From Krasilnikovozyma curviuscula (Eukaryota; Basidiomycota; Tremellomycetes; Cystofilobasidiales; Mrakiaceae), in assembly GCA_014825775.1 (NCBI GenBank), contig MVAQ01000122.1, positions 1-60,806 of the forward strand: 60,806 nucleotides of DNA, read 5' to 3'. Each line of letters starts with the position of its first letter. Positions within the stretch are counted from its first letter, which is position 1. Below, one piece after another: positions 13,327 to 40,100 of the stretch. The translations under genes and the position numbers were made by a program. Below the pieces are notes generated by a model. It worked only from the letters and a program-made list of their open reading frames with translations, was not told the origin of the DNA and did not search any database.

Positions 13327-14545
13327 GGAGAGGGGATGTTCTCTTTTTTCTTCATGCATGTCTTTTCGGAAAAGCAAAAAGAATCACAAAACGAGCAAGT
13401 GGGATAAGGAAAGGAGCGGAGCAAAAAAAAAACTAATAGGGAAAGCAACAGTGAAAAAAGAAAGAGAAGGGAAGAAGAGGCAGAGGGAGAGAAGGAAAAG
13501 ACGAGAGAACTCAGTAATGGGTACTGAGCTGAGAAAAGAAGCAATGCAAAACAGGTTTCTCGCGCAGAGAGCGAACTTTTTTGCGAGAGAAGGGAGTAAT
13601 TGGCTTGTCCCACCACCAACAGCGAAGTCATCTATAGGCAGAACTGTAGATAGATACAGTAGCAAGAACCGCATAGACAACGCATGAGTGGCACGAACAA
13701 CAGCTTGTCAACCTCGAACGGGTGCAATTGGCGACAGGGGCACTCTTTATTAAAAGGCATTGTATGGCTCGACACCATTAATCAGGCGGATATATACGAA
13801 TTTGGCTCTTAGATGAGCTCTCTGTTGCGTATCTCGTGTGAAGCGGTAGTACTTGGTGGAGACTGATTTTGTATCTCACGTGCTGATACCATTGTTTTCT
13901 TTCGTTAAATGTAAAGCTTCTCACTCCAACTTTGAATGATTTTATATACCAGCTCCACAACTAGGCGGTCCGAACTACTCATTGTCTCTCTCGAAAGGTT
14001 CCTTCCATGAGTTTGAACTCGTCTATTTATTTCGTGTCAGGCGACACTCTTGCCGGTTCCCCTTTCCTAGCCGGACTATTCCTTTCCTAAACGCACTCCC
14101 CTCCCCTAATCACATGAAACCCCAGAAGAATTCCAGCTATACTCTTCAACCTGCATTTCTAGCGATGTACATATCAAGGGATGGCCTCGGAACGAGGTCG
14201 GAGGGGTTTTAAAGGCTTCGCCCGCTGGTTTGGCTGGATCTAAAAGCTACAAAGGAACAAGATTCATCTCTTGATCTAAACTGGTTTCTTTGTGGTTATG
14301 ATCAGAAGTAATTACGTTCAAAAATGCCCGAGGAGCGCATTGCAAGTGTCAGTAATTACTCCCGCTGCCCATTCCTCCGTTCCTTTCCCATAGCTTTGGT
14401 AACGACCCCTATCCTCATTCACCCACTTGAATCTTTAGTTCGTTATTTCTTTCAACAACTTTGGCTTATAACCAGCCATCATAAGTGCCCTTCTTGAAGC
14501 GTTGTTTCCTCTTCTTTCGCCATCACCAACACTTCCAACGCTATC
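13327..14545. other. Intergenic, 1.2 kb between RPL18 and the GPCR gene
   Basis: The proximal 350 bases are strongly purine-rich on the plus strand (many A and AAAG runs at 13370-13510), a probable RPL18 3' UTR and terminator area. The distal part (14390-14545) is pyrimidine-rich, consistent with a leader for the receptor gene. Frames open on both strands at 13128-13690 reflect base bias, not genes. Confidence 0.5.
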
Positions 14546-16551
14546 ATGGTGCTGTCAGGCTTGAACGAAACTATCACCATTATCTCTCCCTCAACCTACG
14601 GAGGATGGGGCAATTTAACAGTTTACGGGATCAGCCCACTTTACCAAATCTCTGGTAAGCAAGCTGTCATCTCTATAAGGAAAAGAACCGCTTGACGACC
14701 TTTCCTTCTCCAGTCGGAGGTTTCATCTGGCCAAATAAGTCTTATGGAACTGCGTTGATTCCTGCTGCAATCTTCAGTGTTATTTCGTGTATCAGTATCA
14801 CTTCTTTGTTTGTGTACGTCGGCCTCCAAACGACAGTGAAGGGTAATCGAGGCATGGCGAACTTTGTGAGTCTTATTGCTTCTTGTGTTGTTAGATTCTT
14901 CTCTTGTTCATCTTTAGCTCTCCGGCTGTGGTGCCATTCTTCTGGCCACCAGTTTTTCCGAAACTCGATGGGAGCAGTATTGCTGTCAATGTTTTTAGTA
15001 GATTTCCTCGGATCTCTTGGTTGGATAGTCACTTGGAAATGGATTGCTATTGGTGGTACGGACGCTGGCCATCACTGTACTTTCCAAGGCGTGACTCTGC
15101 AGCTCAGCAGCATGGGCGGCGCTTTCTTGTGAGACCCATCATATTCCACTAGATATCTTTCCTACCACTAAACTTTTTTTTACAGTAATCTTCTCCTTGC
15201 TGGTCTGACCTTTAGTGTCCTCGTCCTCCGGGCCCGAATTAACATGAAAATTATATACGCCATCTTAATACCCTGCTGGCTGCTAATCTTTTTGATTCTA
15301 ATTGTGGGACCCCTCATCTATGCGGGTATTGGATATGGAGCAGACAGATTCTACGGTCCGTCTACCAGGTATGGCCATCTCATTCAGCCCGCCTCAACTC
15401 ACTGCTGACCCCAAGATCACCTCTCTAACAGTTGGTGCTGGATTGGTGGACTATCAGGGATACCACACGTCTTCATCGGAATCACTGGCGTCATTGTGAG
15501 TGGCGCTTTTGTTATTGGTTCCAACCCTGTCTACTGATGCTTTCGGTTACGGTTCTCAGTGTGTCTTTGGAGCCTTGATTTCGCTTTGTCTGTATACCTC
15601 GGTCCTCATGACCATATCTGGCAGAATGGTGAGTGGTATATTACAACTGATTGGATGTTTTACAAGCTTGTTGTTCTAATGCCTTCTCATTAGACTATCA
15701 ACAAGAGTGGCATCAAATTCCATTGGTCGCAGTCATCACGAAGCAAAGGAGAAGGCTCCAACTCTGGACAACACTACTCCAACAGCGGTAACCCCAAATC
15801 AGGAGCCATGAAGACTGGTATTTCTGAAGTCGAGTCCATTGGTAAACAAGTAAGGCTATGTCTTGACGCCCTGCTCGTGGCTGGTCATCGCTGACACTCG
15901 TTGTTTTAGGTCACTCGTGTCTGTCGACGATTACGATTAATGTGGTATCCAATTGTCAGCATCATCAGTCTTTCTCCTATGGCAGTTTATCGATTTTACT
16001 TGTTCAGTCATCCCGATGCTGGTAATTACATAAATAAGAACGACTGTAGACCAAGAGGAGCTGACTCGCCTATCTTGACCCATGTCTGTTCATGATGACA
16101 GATTCTAGAATAGATTACTCAATCACTGCTTGGGCAGCAAGTTTCGAGTCTCTAACTGGTATCGCTAATGTTTTACTCTTCTTCTTCACTCGTAAGTGTG
16201 GCCTTATAGCGCAAACCTCTCCCTCATGACATCTATCTCACCTCTTGTTGCTTCTCAGGACACTCGTTGTTTATCAACGCAGCAGCAACAAATGGTAATG
16301 CAACTGGAGTTCACGTTCAAATCACCACCCAGAGATTCGAAGACTCAGATGGGCAGTTCCAGCTCAAAAGCATTAGGAGGAAGAAGAACGCGACTGGGAG
16401 TGATGAAGATTTGGTCGCTGATGTTGAAGCTGGCAATACTCGCCTGGGTAGCACGATTAGTGTCGACTCGAAGAGTCACACTGAGAATTTGTCGAGTACA
16501 GCTGAGCTGGTACGGGAGGAAATGAGGAAAGAAGCTGTCAAATGGAACTGA
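14546..16551 (+). CDS. Seven-transmembrane GPCR, Git3/cAR-like
   Basis: Ten exons (14546-14654, 14714-14865, 14953-15128, 15186-15368, 15432-15495, 15560-15628, 15694-15849, 15910-16021, 16102-16191, 16259-16551) join in phase to about 467 residues. The N-terminus is short with N-glycosylation sites. Seven hydrophobic segments follow, starting TALIPAAIFSVISCISITSL, with SMFLVDFLGSLGWIV and the TM3 entry CTFQGVTLQLSSMGGAF (a conserved Cys before TM3), then YAILIPCWLLIFLILIVGPL and WCWIGG. The third loop is Ser/Gly-rich and the sixth helix opens with CRRLRLMWYPIVSIISLSP, typical of fungal Git3/Gpr1 and Dictyostelium cAR-like receptors. The Ser/Thr-rich cytoplasmic tail suits phosphorylation. 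The ligand is unknown. It ends 140 bp from the convergent USP gene. Confidence 0.85.
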
Positions 16552-16691
16552 CAGGTGATCTTTTGATATATAAAGATTGTTGTTTAATGTGTTTGTCCTT
16601 TATTTATTGGGGAAAGGAAATTTGGACGCATTCGTTAGAATCAAACAACGTGATATTAAACAATGCTACCAAGATGATCGTAAACACAGAT

Positions 16692-19600
16692 TTAGGCTGA
16701 TCTCTGCCGCCTATAGAACAGGACATAAGCTCGATCGTCCTGGAAAAGGAGAGGAAGAATCATATTAGCATAGTTGACGGCTAACCTTGATTTGGAGGTC
16801 AGAGCTAACTCTACTCACAACAACTTCGTTTGCCGTCAAAACATCCGAGACCTGCAGATCAAAGAACTGCCTCCATGTTCCATCTAAGTTCAATGACTTA
16901 GCAGAGTACTCTCCTGAGCTCAGACCACCTCTATGCTGACTGACAGAGTCTGTGACATCCGAAGTCATGTCAGAGTGGCCATCAGCACATCAAAAAAAGG
17001 CAGCTGGCTCACAGAGGTCATACAACAATCTTTCTCCCGTCTTATAACCTGACTTCACATACTGTGTTAAGTCAAGATTCTGAGGTGGAAAGGCCTATCA
17101 GATAGAAAATTGGTTTCGTCAGACTGTGGTTTTATCATAAGCATCACTGCGTATGAGTTTTAGTTTAGACCTACTATGAAGTCCTCGATCTTGTCTTTGT
17201 AAGAGTAGCCACCAGAGAAACGCTTCAAATGGACAATCAAGATATCAGGGGTGCTCCATATTTCCATATTCTTTGAAGCTGGTTGGAGCTTGTTGCACTG
17301 ATGGTGAAAGAAGGAAGCTGTCAGGAATTGAGAGTTGCTTGCTCTTAGTCATCGAGGCGTACTTGTGAGCAAAACCAGAAATCCTCAAAAGACAAAGTGT
17401 CACTCTTTGAAAACTCTTGAAGACAATCGTAGATGCTGATGATGGGCTGTTGCGGTGAGTCATCTTCGAAAAGTTCCCATCCAACCGGCGTTTCTTCAGC
17501 TGCCGAGTTGGAAGAGCAAATCACTATGTCACCACTCGAAAGAGCATCAGAAAGATCAGAGAGCTTGACTGAGTCGGAAAGGTCCGGAGAACCCGCTTGA
17601 AGCTCTCTCGTCGTCTTTTTGATAACTGAGATCGAGAACGCAGGTGAATCTGATGCACTAATGATAAAATTCTTTATCATGTTGTCCAGTAAGGATGGTG
17701 AGGATCCCATATCCATGGTAATGAAAGAGGGAAGTCCAAATAGAGCATCATAATCTGTTCCATCCGTTGATGTAGCGCGTTGGGATGTAAACACTGGCAA
17801 TACAACTTTGTCGGAAACTGCGATGATGACGACTCCGTTTTGTACGGAAACCTTAGAACCAACATCATAGAAAGCAAGAGTATCGCCTTCTGGTATAGGC
17901 TGTAAAGAGGTGGCATCGTCGAAGAACTGATAAAACCGTCCACCGAAGACGTCTCCCGCGATGGTCTTGAAGGTAGATGCGTTATATCAGGGATTCAATC
18001 AGCTCTTCAGCCATCAAGACGGAGATTGATCCAAAATGTAACTCACCGCGCTGGGATCGATCCCAAACTTGTCCCTTAGTATACACTTGATGTCCCATAT
18101 CGAAGCATCTGAAGGTACTGTGACAGTAGCCTAAACCCTTTTTCGGTCAGATTCATTACAAACAAGCAATAGCGCCAACGAGCTCACCAAGGATGATAAC
18201 TCACCTTGATTTTTCTTCTTTTCGGGGAAGTGCTGACCACATACACATCTCTTGTGATTGTTCCCTGCACTGGGATCGGAAGACTCAGGAACATATAGGG
18301 GTCGAAAGTAATTGATTCCTGAAGCAAATTAAACCATCACGTTATCATGGATAACAAGTTTCGAGAGAATGGAGGCGAGGAGAACGCACATTTTTGCATT
18401 CGGGACACTGTACACAGCTCTTCAACTGCCCTTGGAACAGGTCAACAATCAAAGAGTCATTTCTCTTCTTGTGCTGCTCCCAACAGACCATCGCATACTC
18501 TTCAAGTGCTTGATGATCGCCGCCAATCCATTCAGGTCTGTCCGTGTACGGCTTCACTTGAATTCTATTCAGATCTTCGTGGAGAGAGTCCAAGAGAAAG
18601 GCAAGAAACTCCTGAGAATCTTGTTCCTGGAACCCTGCGAACAAGGAAGAATGCTTTGAGATAATCCGTTTGAAGTTCCCCGCTGAACCATAGTCTCGAT
18701 CTGAACTCCTCCACAGCTCATTGAAGAGATCACCGTATGCTATAGCTACTTCTCCGGACGTTCCAAGAGGGTTGGAGAGGTTGAGATCGGCGAGATGAGA
18801 GTTTCGAAGGAAGTAATCCTTGAGTTCTGGGAGTCGAATGACGCTTTGTAATGAAGCATTCATGAAACAGGTATGTCCCCTATGAAGTGAAGGAAAGACG
18901 TCAGGAATGGTTGTTACAGACGAATATGAATTACTTACAGGTTGTTCAAGCCTTTGACAAGGACATCTGATACCGGCTTGCTCGACCATTCTTCATTCGT
19001 CTTCAATTCTCCCATAGCCCACAGATCATCAACCCGATAGTCCACCAGTAGCATGCTCCTGTTTATACTGGCAGACTCCACGGTTTCCAGAGTCAACTCG
19101 GAGCCTAGATCTAATGGAACGCATCGCAGATCTTTGAGCGCGACTTCCGAGGAGACGATGCGGCGGTTAGAATCGATAAAGGATGGAACTTGAGGCTGCC
19201 ATTGAGTAGGGATCTTCCAGAGTCGACAAACAGAAGGATCCAACCCAAAGTGGTCTTTGCAACAAAGTTGAAGGAGCTCTTCGTATGGCATTGCTGCTGA
19301 AAGAGTTGCGACGTATTCGGAGCGTGTTGCTGGAGGGTGGGGGTCGTACTTGTGGTTGATGAGAAAGATTGAAACCCTAGGAGGCTGTCATGGTTCTTCA
19401 ACAGTCAGAACAATGCTGTGATTGTTGGATAAAACTCACCAACATCTCAATCCGAAGTTCTCCAGCGGGAGCTGTGATCACTCTTCGTGTCACAGTGAAG
19501 TTAGCAGGCCCATACCTACATCCCGAAGAATACATTTAACTTGATCAAAGAGAGGACAAGAAGTAGATAAGCTAGTAGCTTACCAGGACTGAAGAAGGTC

Positions 19601-20027
19601 CCATGCAGCCTTAGGCAGGCAAGTCACTTCTTGGTCTTCCAAGTACGAAACCCCATCCATCCCAACTATCCTAGAGTTATCTAATGGTGGAACGGTGGGT
19701 GTTGGGTTACTACTGTAGGATATGGAGCTGCTGTTGATGTGCTCGAATAATCGATACCACTGGAGTTCCAGCCCGTTTGTCAACTGGCCATCTTTCAACC
19801 TTTTGGGGTTCATGGGGAGACTCAGCAACTGCTCACTCTATTGTCTACAAGATACCAGTCGTCCCCAAGGATATAAGGCGAGTGATTCTTGAAGTCTACG
19901 TGAATACGTGAAACCAACCACAAAATGAGCCGAAGCACGCAGCAGAACACATAAAAGGAGAGTTGGAGGCTTGGTACCGACCTGAAATGACCTGCAGTCT
20001 GCTCGTGGTTGTTTCACAGCCCTCCAT
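16692..20027 (-). CDS. Ubp12/USP15-like ubiquitin protease with degenerate active site
   Basis: Multi-exon gene, roughly 850-900 residues. Exon 1 (20027-19982) starts MEGCETTTSRLQVIS; exons 2-3 give the DUSP domain (ILGDDWYLVDNRWYRLF, later AAWDLLQSWYGPANFTVTRR). A ubiquitin-like segment and the USP catalytic core follow. The Cys box NLGHTCFMNASLQS is intact (Cys codon 18869-18867), as are EQDSQEFLAFLLDSLHEDLN and the zinc knuckles CVQCPEC and FCSQC. A ubiquitin-like insert (DASIWDIKCILRDKFGID) sits between the knuckles, as in USP4/11/15. The His box reads SVSQHRGGLSSGEYSAKS, with Glu (16911-16909) where GGGHY has His; the next box reads WRQFFDLQVSDV, with Phe (16863-16861) where W-x-x-F-D/N-D has the acid. 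The C-terminus AYVLFYRRQRSA is normal. It may bind ubiquitin without cleaving it. Confidence 0.87.
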
Positions 20028-20234
20028 AGTTCCTTTGGCAGCAGCGAAAGTTAGGAAACACTTCGTTTCAGGTACGCGGCGACGTGGAGATTTTGCATGA
20101 ATTCAAGATTATATGAGGAAAGAATTGTATCGAGCTCTGAACAGATAACCGAAAGGGGCTGAGAGAAGGAAATACAACTTGTACCAATGAAATACAGATA
20201 CATTGCTTCGATAAACATTAAATAGTCATGGAGC

Positions 20235-23200
20235 CTAGGAAGATGAAGATCGACTGGGCGCGGTAGGCGAGAGCGGCTCTCCATACATGGCATGATGAGG
20301 AGCAGTGTCGTTGAAAGATACAGAATGAAAGAGAACAGGTCGTTGGGTTGTCATTAAAGGAGATGCGATGAAAGTTGACGAATGTTGGAACGTCGGAGAT
20401 GGGCGTTGGCGAGACTGTGGTGTGAACGCGAACTGACCGAATTCAGGTGTTGAGAGTTGCACGACTGCTGAAGACGATGGCACAAGGAATTTGTCACCGG
20501 TGGTTTCTGGAACTTCTGGGTACTCGAAGTATTGGTATTGAGGACCGTCGAGCGGCGTTTCGACGTAGTGCTGATTGGGGAACGAGAATTCGTCCCACTC
20601 GCTGAACGATGACAGGCTACTGAGCTGAGGCGTTAATTGCCGGGTACTGGCAAAGGAGTGATGGTTGTCCCTCGGGGTATCGATAGAGACGGATGAGTTA
20701 GTGTACGACCCTATGTTGAAATACTGATGAGAGACACGCTCCGTCATGAGTTCAGGGTCGTTCCTTTCCGTCACCATCCCAGAGGGGTTCATGAAGTCGA
20801 CTAACGACAGCCGACGGAACTCAGAAGAGAAGGTGAGATTGGTTGAACGAGCATGCCGTTCACGGTCCAGGCGCTCCTCCCAGAGTTGGTGGATCGAAGC
20901 AACTCTCTCTTCCGATTTGGTGTGGGCGAACCTCATCTCTCGGAAGGCAGATACAAAAGCATTCAACTGCTCTTCCGTCCCGTTGGTTTCAGCGAGAGTT
21001 ATTCCAGCCAGGAAGGTGCCAACTAGCAGAGAGAAGGTCAATCTCAGCTGGAACAATCGAAGGAGGAAATGGAAATCTTACTTTGAACGGCGGCGGCATC
21101 GTACTGGAAGAACGAGGTGCCCAGTTGTCGCTGAACTATTTCTGCGATGCTCTTTACCAATGAATCGCATCTGTTGCGAACTAACGGAATCATGCGAGTG
21201 TGAATCGCTGTGGTGACTTCAGCCGTTTGAGTCGGTGTCTTCTCCAAAAGAGTAGCGTACATGATGTGATCTGTTTGAAGACGATTCCAAAATCAGTAAT
21301 TCTCCAGCTATCGAATAAACCAAAATTCTTTACTCACAAGCTGAAAAGATCTGTATCTTCCACGAATCACACCACCTCTCCGTGTCTTCCTGAGTCATGA
21401 CGCCAACTGGTTCGGCTCCTCTGATACTATCCAAATCAGACCAACACCGGTCAAAGATTTCGACTGCAGCTACGAGATGGTTCTCGCTGACGGCGCCCCT
21501 ATTTCTGCGGTTGTGGAGTGCTTTGTGGACCAGTCGTAAGGCTGAGGAGATGTTGGAGACAGGGGCAGTGAAGGCGGTGAAGTTCTGGTAGTATGGTGAG
21601 ATACTAGTGAGGGCCTGAACAATGGGGGATTTGGGGCTGAAAATCATGATGTCTTCATGATCGCTGTAGAAGGTGGTAGAGATGAGAACGTCGTCGTGAC
21701 ACCTACAGGATTGAAAGTGTGCTTACAATATGAGACGTCTTCCAGTGAGAGAAAAGTTGGCCGATTCATGCTGCAGAAGATAAAATCAAGGTCAGTCAAT
21801 AGTCTACTGTGGGATTTGATGTCCTTGCTCACCGTGAAGCAGTACCAGAACACGCGTGTTCGAACGAGCAGACTTTCGCTCTCATGAATCGCGAACGCAT
21901 CAACATCCCCATTCCAACTCAGCGAGAGAGGAGTATTTGTAGTCAGAGCCAGTACCTGAGAGTACATCGTCTCATACATCGATTGGATTTGGACGGGTGG
22001 GAGGAGATCACCCGCGAGGGGCAGCAGCAGAAGCACGACTCTGATACCATCCCAACTCGGTTTACGCATAATTCCCAGAGTGTCGACGTCTCGAAGGAGG
22101 TGTTGGAGGATTGCATTGCAGTGTTCTTTGGTAAGATGGCGTTGCTGTTCGTTTGGCGGGTCGGTGGGTTCATAACCTTCGTGCGACACACCGTACGCCG
22201 CCGCCCAAGCGTAGAAAACGCGAGAAAGACAAGTTCCCTGCACAAATAAAATGAGAAAATATGATTCAACTGTTGTTGTCTGGGGCCTAGGAAATCGAAT
22301 GAGCACGTACGACCTCTCCGAGCTCGTGGTTTTCAAAACGCGCTGAGAAGTCTGCTGGATCGACGATTGGCCCTAGAAAACACACAAGATTACCATTCAG
22401 TGCTACCAAAAATATGCCCGGATCATCTTTGGACTTACGTTGAACATGAAGGCGACGGTAAAAGGGAGACTTCAAAAAGCGCAGCGTGATTTCTGGATAG
22501 GGCCATATCTGCTGCTGTTGTTGTTGCCGGTGTACGCCTTCTTGCTGTTGCTGATGGCTCTTATATTTACTGGTGAAGGGCTGTTCCTCAGCCTCTTCAA
22601 CTGTCGCGATGCTCGCTAATGTGGCGCTATCACGCTGCTGCGACTGACTCCAGTCGAGTGAGCTGCTGATGGGAAGGGATTGATAAGCGGGCGACAAGCT
22701 GGTGACGGTCTGTTTGTTCTGTTCAAGCTGTTTGATGAGTTTTCCCTTTCGTAAGATTTTGGGCTTTCGAGTCGAGGCGAACTCGTCCCTGGATAATCCG
22801 CGCACAGGGTTTGTTTGATAAGCACGGGGAAATGGCAAGGTCAGATAGAGCGTTGCACCGGAAGGAAGGGTGAAGCAGTCTCTTACACGCATTTCAGGCC
22901 TCTTTCCTCACAGTTTGAGCAGCTTATCAACGAGATATCGCTAATTCCATCATCCTCAATCCCCAGAACTTTGTTCTTTGCCACAATCTCTTGGACAATG
23001 CTCTGTCTCTCCCTCAGATTGCATTTCACCCTTCGAAGCTGAATGGGAAAAAAGAATTTCCAAAATAACATCAAGGGTAAAGGGGAACAGTCAACAAATT
23101 ATGGCCGCTTGACACGAGCTTGCGAATGTTTCCAAACGCCTGTAGCTGCGACGTTACGAAGACAGATAGCAAAACAGCCACTCACTCGACAGATGCTGCA

Positions 23201-37123: not shown

Positions 37124-40100
37124 TCACAAAAATGAGATAAGGCGTGCAACATGGAGTGTCAACGGCTGGTTGGAAGGCTGTGAGGAATGATGGGGTTTGA
37201 GTTGATTAGAGCTGACGCCTTGAGGTTCTGAAACTTCCGAAGAGGCAGATGAATGCCCAGCTCGAACGGACGCGAGGATCACCTCCGAATCTCCTCTTTT
37301 ATCTAGAATTGCATAAGAGTCATTACTGTGTTCGAACTTTTAGGAAACGTAACGTTGTGCCACTTACAGAAGTTGACAGACCTTTTTGATCGCACTCCGG
37401 AATCTGGAGTATTTCCGCTGCTCGTTCGAGTACGAGGCTGTTTTGAATTATCCTCCAATCCAATACCAAAAGAAGACTCTTCATTTTCCACATGGTCAGC
37501 AGATGAGTTCGATTCAGTATTGGCGCTTGGGATTTGAGATTCTTGTGGTCGAGGGTTGATGGGTCGAGCAACTGTCAGTGTTTGGAAAGAAGATTCGCCC
37601 AGATTAGAGTGTCCATGGTCCGTCTTATTCACATTTGAGCTTCCTCCTGAAGAAGTCTTCATCTTTCTTCCAGATGAGGTTGCATCTGATGATTGTGTTC
37701 CAATGCTGGATTGGTCGTATCCAAAGAAGGTGATTTGGCGACCAATAACCAAGATGCTGGGACAAGCAGCAGATATATTATCCTGCGGGTTTATTTGGTC
37801 GATGGTACAGCATGCAGCGTCCAGGAAAAAAATTGGTGCCTCAGGTTTGGCATCAGCTTGGGGAGCTATGTGTGACCGCTGCCAATGACACGTCTCGGTA
37901 TTGAAGATGCACACGGATTGTATACTGTAGACGCCTGACCAAGAGACAAGGTGAACTTTAGCTCATAGACCAAGGAAAGAAAGAGCCTGGACTTACAACA
38001 ATCATCGTAAAGGTTACCTACTGCGTCCTCCTGCTCCAGTAGAGTCATTCCACCTAATACAGCAAATCTGTTACTACCGACAGGCAATAACATAGCATGG
38101 AAGCGTTCAAAAGGCGATATTCCAGAGGTATAGATACCAAAGCTATTGTTTGAACCAAAGCTTGGATCGCCGCTAGAGTTGTGAACAGCTGGAGCCACCG
38201 AGACCTGGCTGGATTCCGAGACAACTTTAGTACTGATCACATGCATCGAACCATCAGCTTCTGATGTGACGTTTTCATTTGCGTCACCGCGTTCGTTTGG
38301 ACCTTGGCCACTCATCACCGTCAAAGGAGTATCGTCGTTGAGGACTTGATGGGTCTGAGAGGGGTTTTCAGGAACAATTGTGTTGGTATCTGGTACTTGT
38401 TGTTGAAACGGTGCATTTTCCCGGTTGCGAGTGATTGTTTCACTCTGATCCATCTCTGGTATGTTGACGTCTCCAAGCATTCCACCCACTGGCGAATGGA
38501 ATGAAGGACCATCATCTGGTTGACCTGAATCTTGAGCATTCGAGCTATGCAGTTGATTTTGACGCCTTCGCAATTCTTTTCGACGAGATCTGTAAGCCAA
38601 ATCATCCGGGGAACGGTAAAGAACCCATCGCCATTCGCCTGGAGCTCCTACACACGTAAGTCTGTACAGAGAATTGAAGATAAGATCCCCACTATAGTGT
38701 AAAAAGTTTCTGCATTCGAAATCAATTCTGATCTCAGGACAGAGTCGAGAATACATACTATGGCTGATCGCGCTGAATACCACCAAAGAGAAACACGCAG
38801 TCACCGAGGCAGACGGAGCCGTGTGCGAAAATGGGCGAGGGCACCTGACCGGAAAGCACTTCAGTAAACCAAAGGCCTGTTATCTTGAAACCGTGCAGCC
38901 GTTGTGAAACATGACAGGATTCAGAAAGGTGTTGACGAGGAAAAGTAACACCACAATAACATACGACATCGTAGATCCACAGGTCGGAGTCACCAGAGAT
39001 ATTCTCCAATGTACGGCCACCGAAGACGACAAGATAGCGATCCCTGATGATATCAAAAGACTGTAAAAGGTAAGTTAGTGGATCTGCGCAACCATCAAAT
39101 AATTGGGAGAAACGAGAATCGCTTACATGGTCTTGTCTGGCTGGTGGCCAGTTCCTCACGAGTTCTCCAGTAGAGCCTAGTAATTTTTGAGAAAAATCAC
39201 AGTATTTTGAGAAAAGTCGTTTGAAAAGGAAGAAAAATGTCTTGACATACCATCGACAGTCACAGGAAACATTGCTTCATCTCCTATCTTCGTGAGCTCC
39301 CAACTGCTTAGAGAGAGCTTGTACATTGAGCTGTGTATTTCCTGATCATCTGGTAACGATAGGAGTGTCCCCGTTGTCCAAGACGATGTGGATTTCTTCT
39401 GCTTCTCAAAGTCTGAGCCATACTTCTGTCTACAACCTCCATAGAAATACAACGCTGGTTCGATGTCGAATTCCTTACTTCCTGAAAAGTATTGGACTGG
39501 TGATGTAAGAGGTATCCACGGTGAGAGAGATGACAGAACGACGACTTGTGCAACGGCCCAGGAATTGGTCGAGAGATCCAAGATGTGGCACACCGGATGT
39601 TCCAGAGTGAAAGATGGCTGGTAAAGTTTTCCACTGACCAGAACTGACATTCGAGTTGGGAACGAAGAGGGGAATGACGCGGCTGGTGGCGCTGAGACTG
39701 GAGAGACCCTTTCAGCAAAAACGGTTGAAGGGTTTGCGTCTGTGTCGGAATGACCTGTTGCTGAAGCTGAAGGAACGAGTGATTGTGAAATGAAGATGTT
39801 CGGTGTCGGGGTGCTGATCTTGATACTCCTAAAGCCCCCAAATGCCGACACCGAGTCCCTCATCCTCTTGCAGGTCTGCGAGAGCCTGGCGAGAGATTTC
39901 TTCGAGAGGAAATGCAGAATTCGAGTAAGGATCAGGTAATTGAGAAGTAGAATGTGTTGAGTAGAAGGTCCTGTTCCGGAGAATGAGGCTACGGATGAAG
40001 TAGTGTGGGAGAAGCTGCAACCACTCTCGCACCAAGCTAGGAGGGTCATGTGGATTCACCTGGTGCAAAGGGGACCTCATATGAATCTGGAGCAGCTACA

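Follow-up and report, generated by a model that had tools for sequence, protein, structure and literature searches.

A Ubp12 paralogue in Krasilnikovozyma curviuscula with glutamate at the catalytic histidine position: a probable lineage-specific pseudo-deubiquitinase

The genome of the basidiomycete Krasilnikovozyma curviuscula appears to pair an intact Ubp12-type ubiquitin-specific protease (USP) with a lineage-specific paralogue that is catalytically dead and has been retained, in other words a pseudo-deubiquitinase. Judged from the sequence, this reading has a probability of about 0.7. The window analysed here, by which is meant the whole stretch of 60,806 nucleotides of contig MVAQ01000122.1, carries the coding region of this second copy on the minus strand at 16692-20027. 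The predicted protein is of the Ubp12/USP4-11-15 type and is 825 amino acids long; its nucleophilic cysteine is kept and its catalytic histidine is replaced.

The proteins of the window gene and of the intact paralogue were both spliced on homology and splice-site grounds. In the resulting model the window gene (20027-16692) has 13 exons and 825 codons with no internal stop, and its 12 introns, which are 55-86 bases long, agree with those of the paralogue in place and phase at 12 of 12 positions. The intron boundaries are GT-AG pairs that were picked where they are homologous to those of the paralogue, which makes the count of GT-AG boundaries partly a matter of construction, while the presence of a fitting pair of the same phase at each of the 12 places is not.

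The domain order can be followed along the exons, all on the minus strand. Exon 1 (19982-20027) encodes a short N-terminus with a putative start codon, the DUSP domain begins in exon 2 (19837-19895) and runs through exon 3 (19584-19759), and exon 4 (19440-19515) holds its end and a linker. The Pfam DUSP model matches residues 26-107 with 39.7 bits, against a cut-off of 29.3. Exon 5 (18939-19384) lies between the DUSP domain and the catalytic core, where a ubiquitin-like domain would be expected by analogy with USP4 and USP15, as another would be in the insert. The region after the DUSP domain aligns with the paralogue, and neither protein has a Pfam UBL match, so that of the two accessory domains that the initial annotation supposed to be kept, the DUSP domain can be confirmed and the ubiquitin-like domain cannot. 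The Cys half of the USP core, with the Cys box, the switching loop and the first zinc knuckle, is encoded by exon 6 (18390-18879), which is followed by exon 7 (18205-18318) and by the catalytic-domain insert in exon 8 (18047-18130) and exon 9 (17363-17965). The insert part of exon 9 is longer in the paralogue; this exon also supplies C696 of the second zinc pair, whose other member, C699, is encoded in exon 10 (17175-17297) together with the VHLKRF stretch. After exon 11 (17013-17094), exon 12 (16819-16949) contributes the His box and the third-residue box within the product SVSQHRGGLSSGEYSAKSLNLDGTWRQFFDLQVSDV, and exon 13 (16692-16739) ends the core with AYVLFYRR and a stop codon, without a C-terminal tail. 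The Pfam UCH model matches residues 264-819 with 213.8 bits (cut-off 23.9) over profile positions 2-254 of 254, with an overlapping UCH_1 match, a match to the USP (peptidase C19) fold across the whole core. The best PDB matches are 6crn (USP15, E 3.3e-85), 2y6e (USP4) and 8oyp (USP11); these matches, and a tree built from 31 selected rows in which the protein is the probable sister of the Ubp12 of its own genome, place it in the USP4/11/15-Ubp12 subfamily.

For the analysis of the active site, the window protein was aligned with 224 relatives, namely the paralogue from its own genome and 223 different proteins from the first two of three database lists. The three protein searches found 317, 3176 and 120 proteins under their thresholds; the lists comprised the 120 best rows for each of the first two and every row for the third, and about 8000 candidates were scored in the first two. 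The relatives are thus the best matches listed in a collection gathered by similarity, beyond which dead copies may exist. Glu-780 (16909-16911) stands in the His box, SVSQHRGGLSSGEY, at the position of the catalytic histidine, which is present in 224 of the 224 relatives. The third-residue box reads WRQFFD, with Phe-796 (16861-16863) at the canonical third catalytic residue, where 195 relatives have Asp and 29 have Asn. The adjoining Asp-797 (16858-16860), which corresponds to D880 of USP15, the essential "fourth" residue, is kept, as it is in 223 relatives (the remaining one has Gly). Cys-272 (18867-18869), at the nucleophile position, is shared with all 224 relatives, and the zinc cysteines are all retained, both in the first pair, C426/C429 (18396-18407), and in the second, C696 and C699. 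The initial annotation had placed Glu and Phe at exactly these two catalytic positions and had described the cysteine and the zinc knuckles as intact, and it was correct on each of these points.

Changes are also found in the loops that surround the active site, at 4 of the 4 compared: N270H in the Cys loop, Q353E in the switching loop, R729Y in blocking loop 1 and GG777-778SS in blocking loop 2. His-270 (18873-18875), which lies two residues ahead of the nucleophile, and Glu-353 (18624-18626), at the position of Q349 in USP15, replace residues that are Asn and Gln, respectively, in 224 of 224 relatives. The appearance of the new His-270 accompanies the loss of the catalytic histidine. The switching-loop Gln is described as closing the channel in USP15 (PMC6231127). 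Retained, on the other side of the ledger, are D355, Y781, the zinc site and E358, the equivalent of USP15 Glu-354, for which a partnership with Arg-72 of ubiquitin has been proposed (PMC6231127), and also N267, to which the oxyanion role is assigned from the analogous N35 of USP54 (PMC12037411). These ubiquitin-contact assignments come from the papers and not from coordinates.

It is the replacement of histidine by glutamate that carries the argument for inactivity. For human USP15, the reported catalytic efficiencies are 0.35 (wild type), 0.38 (D879A mutant) and below 0.0001 (D880A mutant, which is dead) (PMC10867860). D879 is thus dispensable and D880 essential, and the window protein retains the equivalent of D880 as Asp-797. 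The initial annotation had read the two substitutions together as the mark of a pseudo-deubiquitinase; that reading stands on the loss of a histidine found in every relative, and the part of the argument drawn from the third residue is weak. Mutation of the catalytic histidine is reported to abolish cleavage by USP53 and USP54 (PMC12037411), and Glu at position 780 would not be expected to stand in for it. We infer, with good ground, that the window protein lacks isopeptidase activity.

The presumed active counterpart was found in a whole-genome family scan, as a second strong UCH-family locus of the same type on contig C2 (54417-59151, minus strand). It encodes a Ubp12 of 1260 amino acids with a complete triad, its His box reading AVSNHYGGLGGGHY and its third-residue box WHYFDD. 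The two copies are identical at 306 of 783 aligned residues. The C2 protein is extended at its N-terminus and continues for about 180 residues beyond the USP core; the window copy lacks both extensions, as well as part of the catalytic-domain insert. A search of the genome with the window protein gave 17 scored matches, of which 11 belong to the window gene, 5 to the C2 locus and 1 to contig C108, the last covering part of the core at 42% identity. A third copy or a haplotype duplicate was rejected, since the scored matches comprise the two genes and this partial one.

A tree of 31 rows chosen from 225 (LG+C20+F+G4) joins the window protein and the C2 paralogue as sisters with support of 97/95, next to Phaffia rhodozyma at 100/100. 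The window copy is therefore likely to be the sister of the Ubp12 of its own genome; the end branches are 2.54 for the window protein and 0.30 for the paralogue, about eightfold apart, and the placement of so long a row in the tree is unsure. A duplication older than Phaffia, which would make the paralogue the sister of Phaffia, is weakly rejected (p-AU 0.037), and here too the long branch leaves doubt. Residues that are rare elsewhere do not decide the branching order: the window copy and the paralogue share 11, of which 7 are absent from Phaffia, and counted in a comparable way the paralogue and Phaffia share 13 and the window copy and Phaffia 11. Among the matches listed, Phaffia, which belongs to the Cystofilobasidiales, stands closest to both copies. 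On the evidence of this one gene pair, the source organism would probably be placed in that order and not in the Tremellales, as had been supposed.

A central question is whether the window copy has been kept for some function or is simply on its way out. The alternative that survives best, improbable as we take it to be, holds that the Ubp12 on C2 does the work and that the window copy is a functionless gene under relaxed constraint, heading towards a pseudogene. The branch some eight times longer than that of the paralogue fits such a history, as do the missing N- and C-terminal parts. Furthermore, 89 alignment columns show conservation of 97% or more in the relatives, and at these the window protein has lost 10 residues, the largest number in the 225 rows (the median row has lost none and the paralogue 2). 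No orthologue of the window copy is present among the matches listed in the three protein searches (the best 120 of 317, the best 120 of 3176 and all 120), and the only Phaffia protein in these lists is the Ubp12 P0001. Nor did exon-sized fragments among the listed matches yield an orthologue: the best-scoring match to exon 6 is 48% identical, and the highest identities listed (up to 55%) span only part of the exon.

Against this reading stand the 825 codons without a stop, the splice sites that can be used at every one of the 12 intron places and the 79 of 89 near-invariant positions that are retained, including N267, C272, D355, E358, Y781, D797 and the four zinc cysteines. When the 783 aligned codons of the paralogue were left to change neutrally in simulation, down to the observed identity, they acquired a median of 22 stops and a minimum of 13 (100 runs), and neutral change continued until both catalytic codons were two bases away from their starting point produced a median of 30.5 and a minimum of 9 (300 runs); the figure to be set beside these is zero stops in the window gene. 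The differences between the window gene and the paralogue fall on codon positions 1, 2 and 3 at 49, 38 and 68%, a coding pattern, which includes change on the side of the paralogue. The absence of stops, together with the 79 retained positions, makes simple decay unlikely. The initial annotation had named an intact paralogue beside a copy decaying with stops as the finding that would overturn its proposal; the paralogue exists, and the stops do not.

The Rhizopus protein P0071, with a branch of 2.46 against 2.54 for the window protein, has lost 7 of the 89 near-invariant residues and retains both the histidine and the WYDFDD box. In the window protein, 6 of the 10 losses fall in active-site segments; these segments, chosen post hoc, account for 27 of the 89 positions (P 0.04, hypergeometric). 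One of these six, A277S, also occurs in the active paralogue, and when the count is limited to the 87 columns that are intact there, the proportion becomes 5 of 9 losses (P 0.086). A clustering of losses around the active site is thus no more than suggestive. From these patterns we conclude that the fold was probably constrained along most of the branch and the catalytic histidine was not; relaxation may have begun recently.

A second and distinctly less probable alternative is that catalysis persists and that the window protein is a cysteine isopeptidase whose centre has been rebuilt, in which His-270, or some other residue, would replace the lost histidine as base for Cys-272, with Asp-797 kept and the old histidine position acidic. 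The gain of His-270 at a position where every relative has Asn would fit such an arrangement, as would the retention of Cys-272, Asn-267 and Asp-797. To our knowledge, no USP has its base two residues before the nucleophile, which counts against a centre of this kind, and a Glu at the histidine position should disfavour the thiolate. In USP53 and USP54 an unusual loop before the cysteine can be required for activity; these same enzymes, as reported, retain and require their catalytic histidine (PMC12037411). Were the centre indeed rebuilt, the protein would cleave isopeptide bonds through a novel Cys-His arrangement and might act on a different ubiquitin-like modifier.

The least credible alternative, that the motif changes reflect a hidden exon or an assembly or splicing artefact, can draw on the homology-based nature of the gene model and is opposed by several observations: no GHY-like or W-x-x-[FY]-[DN]-[DNS]-like stretch occurs on either strand of 13501-23000, so that an alternative exon restoring the motifs is rejected; the altered codons each differ from those of the paralogue by at least two bases (CAT/GAG by 2 and GAC/TTT by 3), which a single-base error does not explain; the flanking SVSQH-GG, W792, D797 and AYVLFYRR remain in register; and the gene is a single locus among the scored candidates in its own genome. 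The view in the initial annotation that a sequencing or splicing error was unlikely is borne out by these observations.

The surroundings of the gene were also surveyed. Of ten neighbouring open frames scanned against Pfam, two have matches. One holds part of an exon for ribosomal protein L18 (12509-12640, plus strand; 64.6 bits, frame residues 1-44), and the other is an F-box open frame (39180-40055, minus strand; 27.4 bits against a cut-off of 20.5). Reading frames downstream of the latter, at about 39276-37303 on the minus strand, have by eye the look of Kelch-type repeats. The window has no Rfam match at the gathering score and no tRNA.

If the window protein is indeed a dead and retained Ubp12 paralogue, a role can be suggested for it. 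Without the catalytic histidine, Cys-272 would not be activated and ubiquitin would not be cleaved. With less certainty, the protein might work by occupancy, through the docking surfaces of Ubp12 on the DUSP domain and the USP body, and would then compete with Ubp12 or modulate it at its partners, whether or not it holds ubiquitin. Specific competition with Ubp12, a proposal made by analogy, is tentative and carries a minor share of the confidence placed in inactivity and retention. The Aspergillus orthologue UspA/Usp15 is reported to interact with six subunits of the COP9 signalosome (PMC6627422), which makes this complex, again by analogy, the first candidate partner. The binding of ubiquitin or shielding of substrates that the initial annotation proposed is uncertain. 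For free ubiquitin, the reported binding strengths are 0.092 uM (USP4) and 0.0006 uM (its Cys-to-Ala mutant) (PMC4243247; PMC6172466), showing that a dead protein of the USP4 type can hold ubiquitin strongly; the altered active-site loops of the window protein mean that such binding could be lost or changed.

Comparison with known systems helps to place the protein. Human USP4, USP11 and USP15 are described as having the catalytic histidine (PMC10637973) that the window protein lacks. With the fungal Ubp12 proteins (S. pombe Ubp12, Aspergillus UspA, the C2 paralogue and Phaffia P0001) it shares the DUSP domain, the split USP core, the Cys box and the zinc knuckles, and it differs from them in the changes of His to Glu and of the third residue to Phe, in the altered loops and in its shorter ends and insert. 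USP39/Sad1 and USP52/PAN2 are old families. Both are classed as pseudo-deubiquitinases. They resemble the window protein in combining a USP fold with an incomplete triad, and have non-catalytic roles in splicing and deadenylation; they are described as lacking typical triad residues including the cysteine (PMC10919355), whereas the window protein retains its cysteine. The window protein differs from both, furthermore, in having a DUSP domain and an active-enzyme paralogue in its own genome. USP30 is an active enzyme of another subfamily. It naturally carries Glu at the switching-loop Gln position, as the window protein does (PMC6231127). USP53 and USP54 have unusual active-site loops, which lay behind their label as pseudoenzymes; like USP52, which once bore the same label, they were later reported to be active, and they differ from the window protein in having kept the catalytic histidine (PMC12037411, PMC10919355).

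Pseudo-deubiquitinases as a class are already known and are put at about 13% of deubiquitinases (PMC10919355). A dead paralogue of the USP15/Ubp12 type was not found among the listed titles and abstract beginnings of open-licence PMC papers. Few pseudo-USPs are known, and in the present case one genome pairs an active enzyme with an apparently dead sister whose introns match. With the genomes of related species sequenced, the route by which an enzyme became a non-enzyme could be traced. The histidine and the third residue, which is dispensable in USP15, have gone together, and the essential fourth Asp has stayed.
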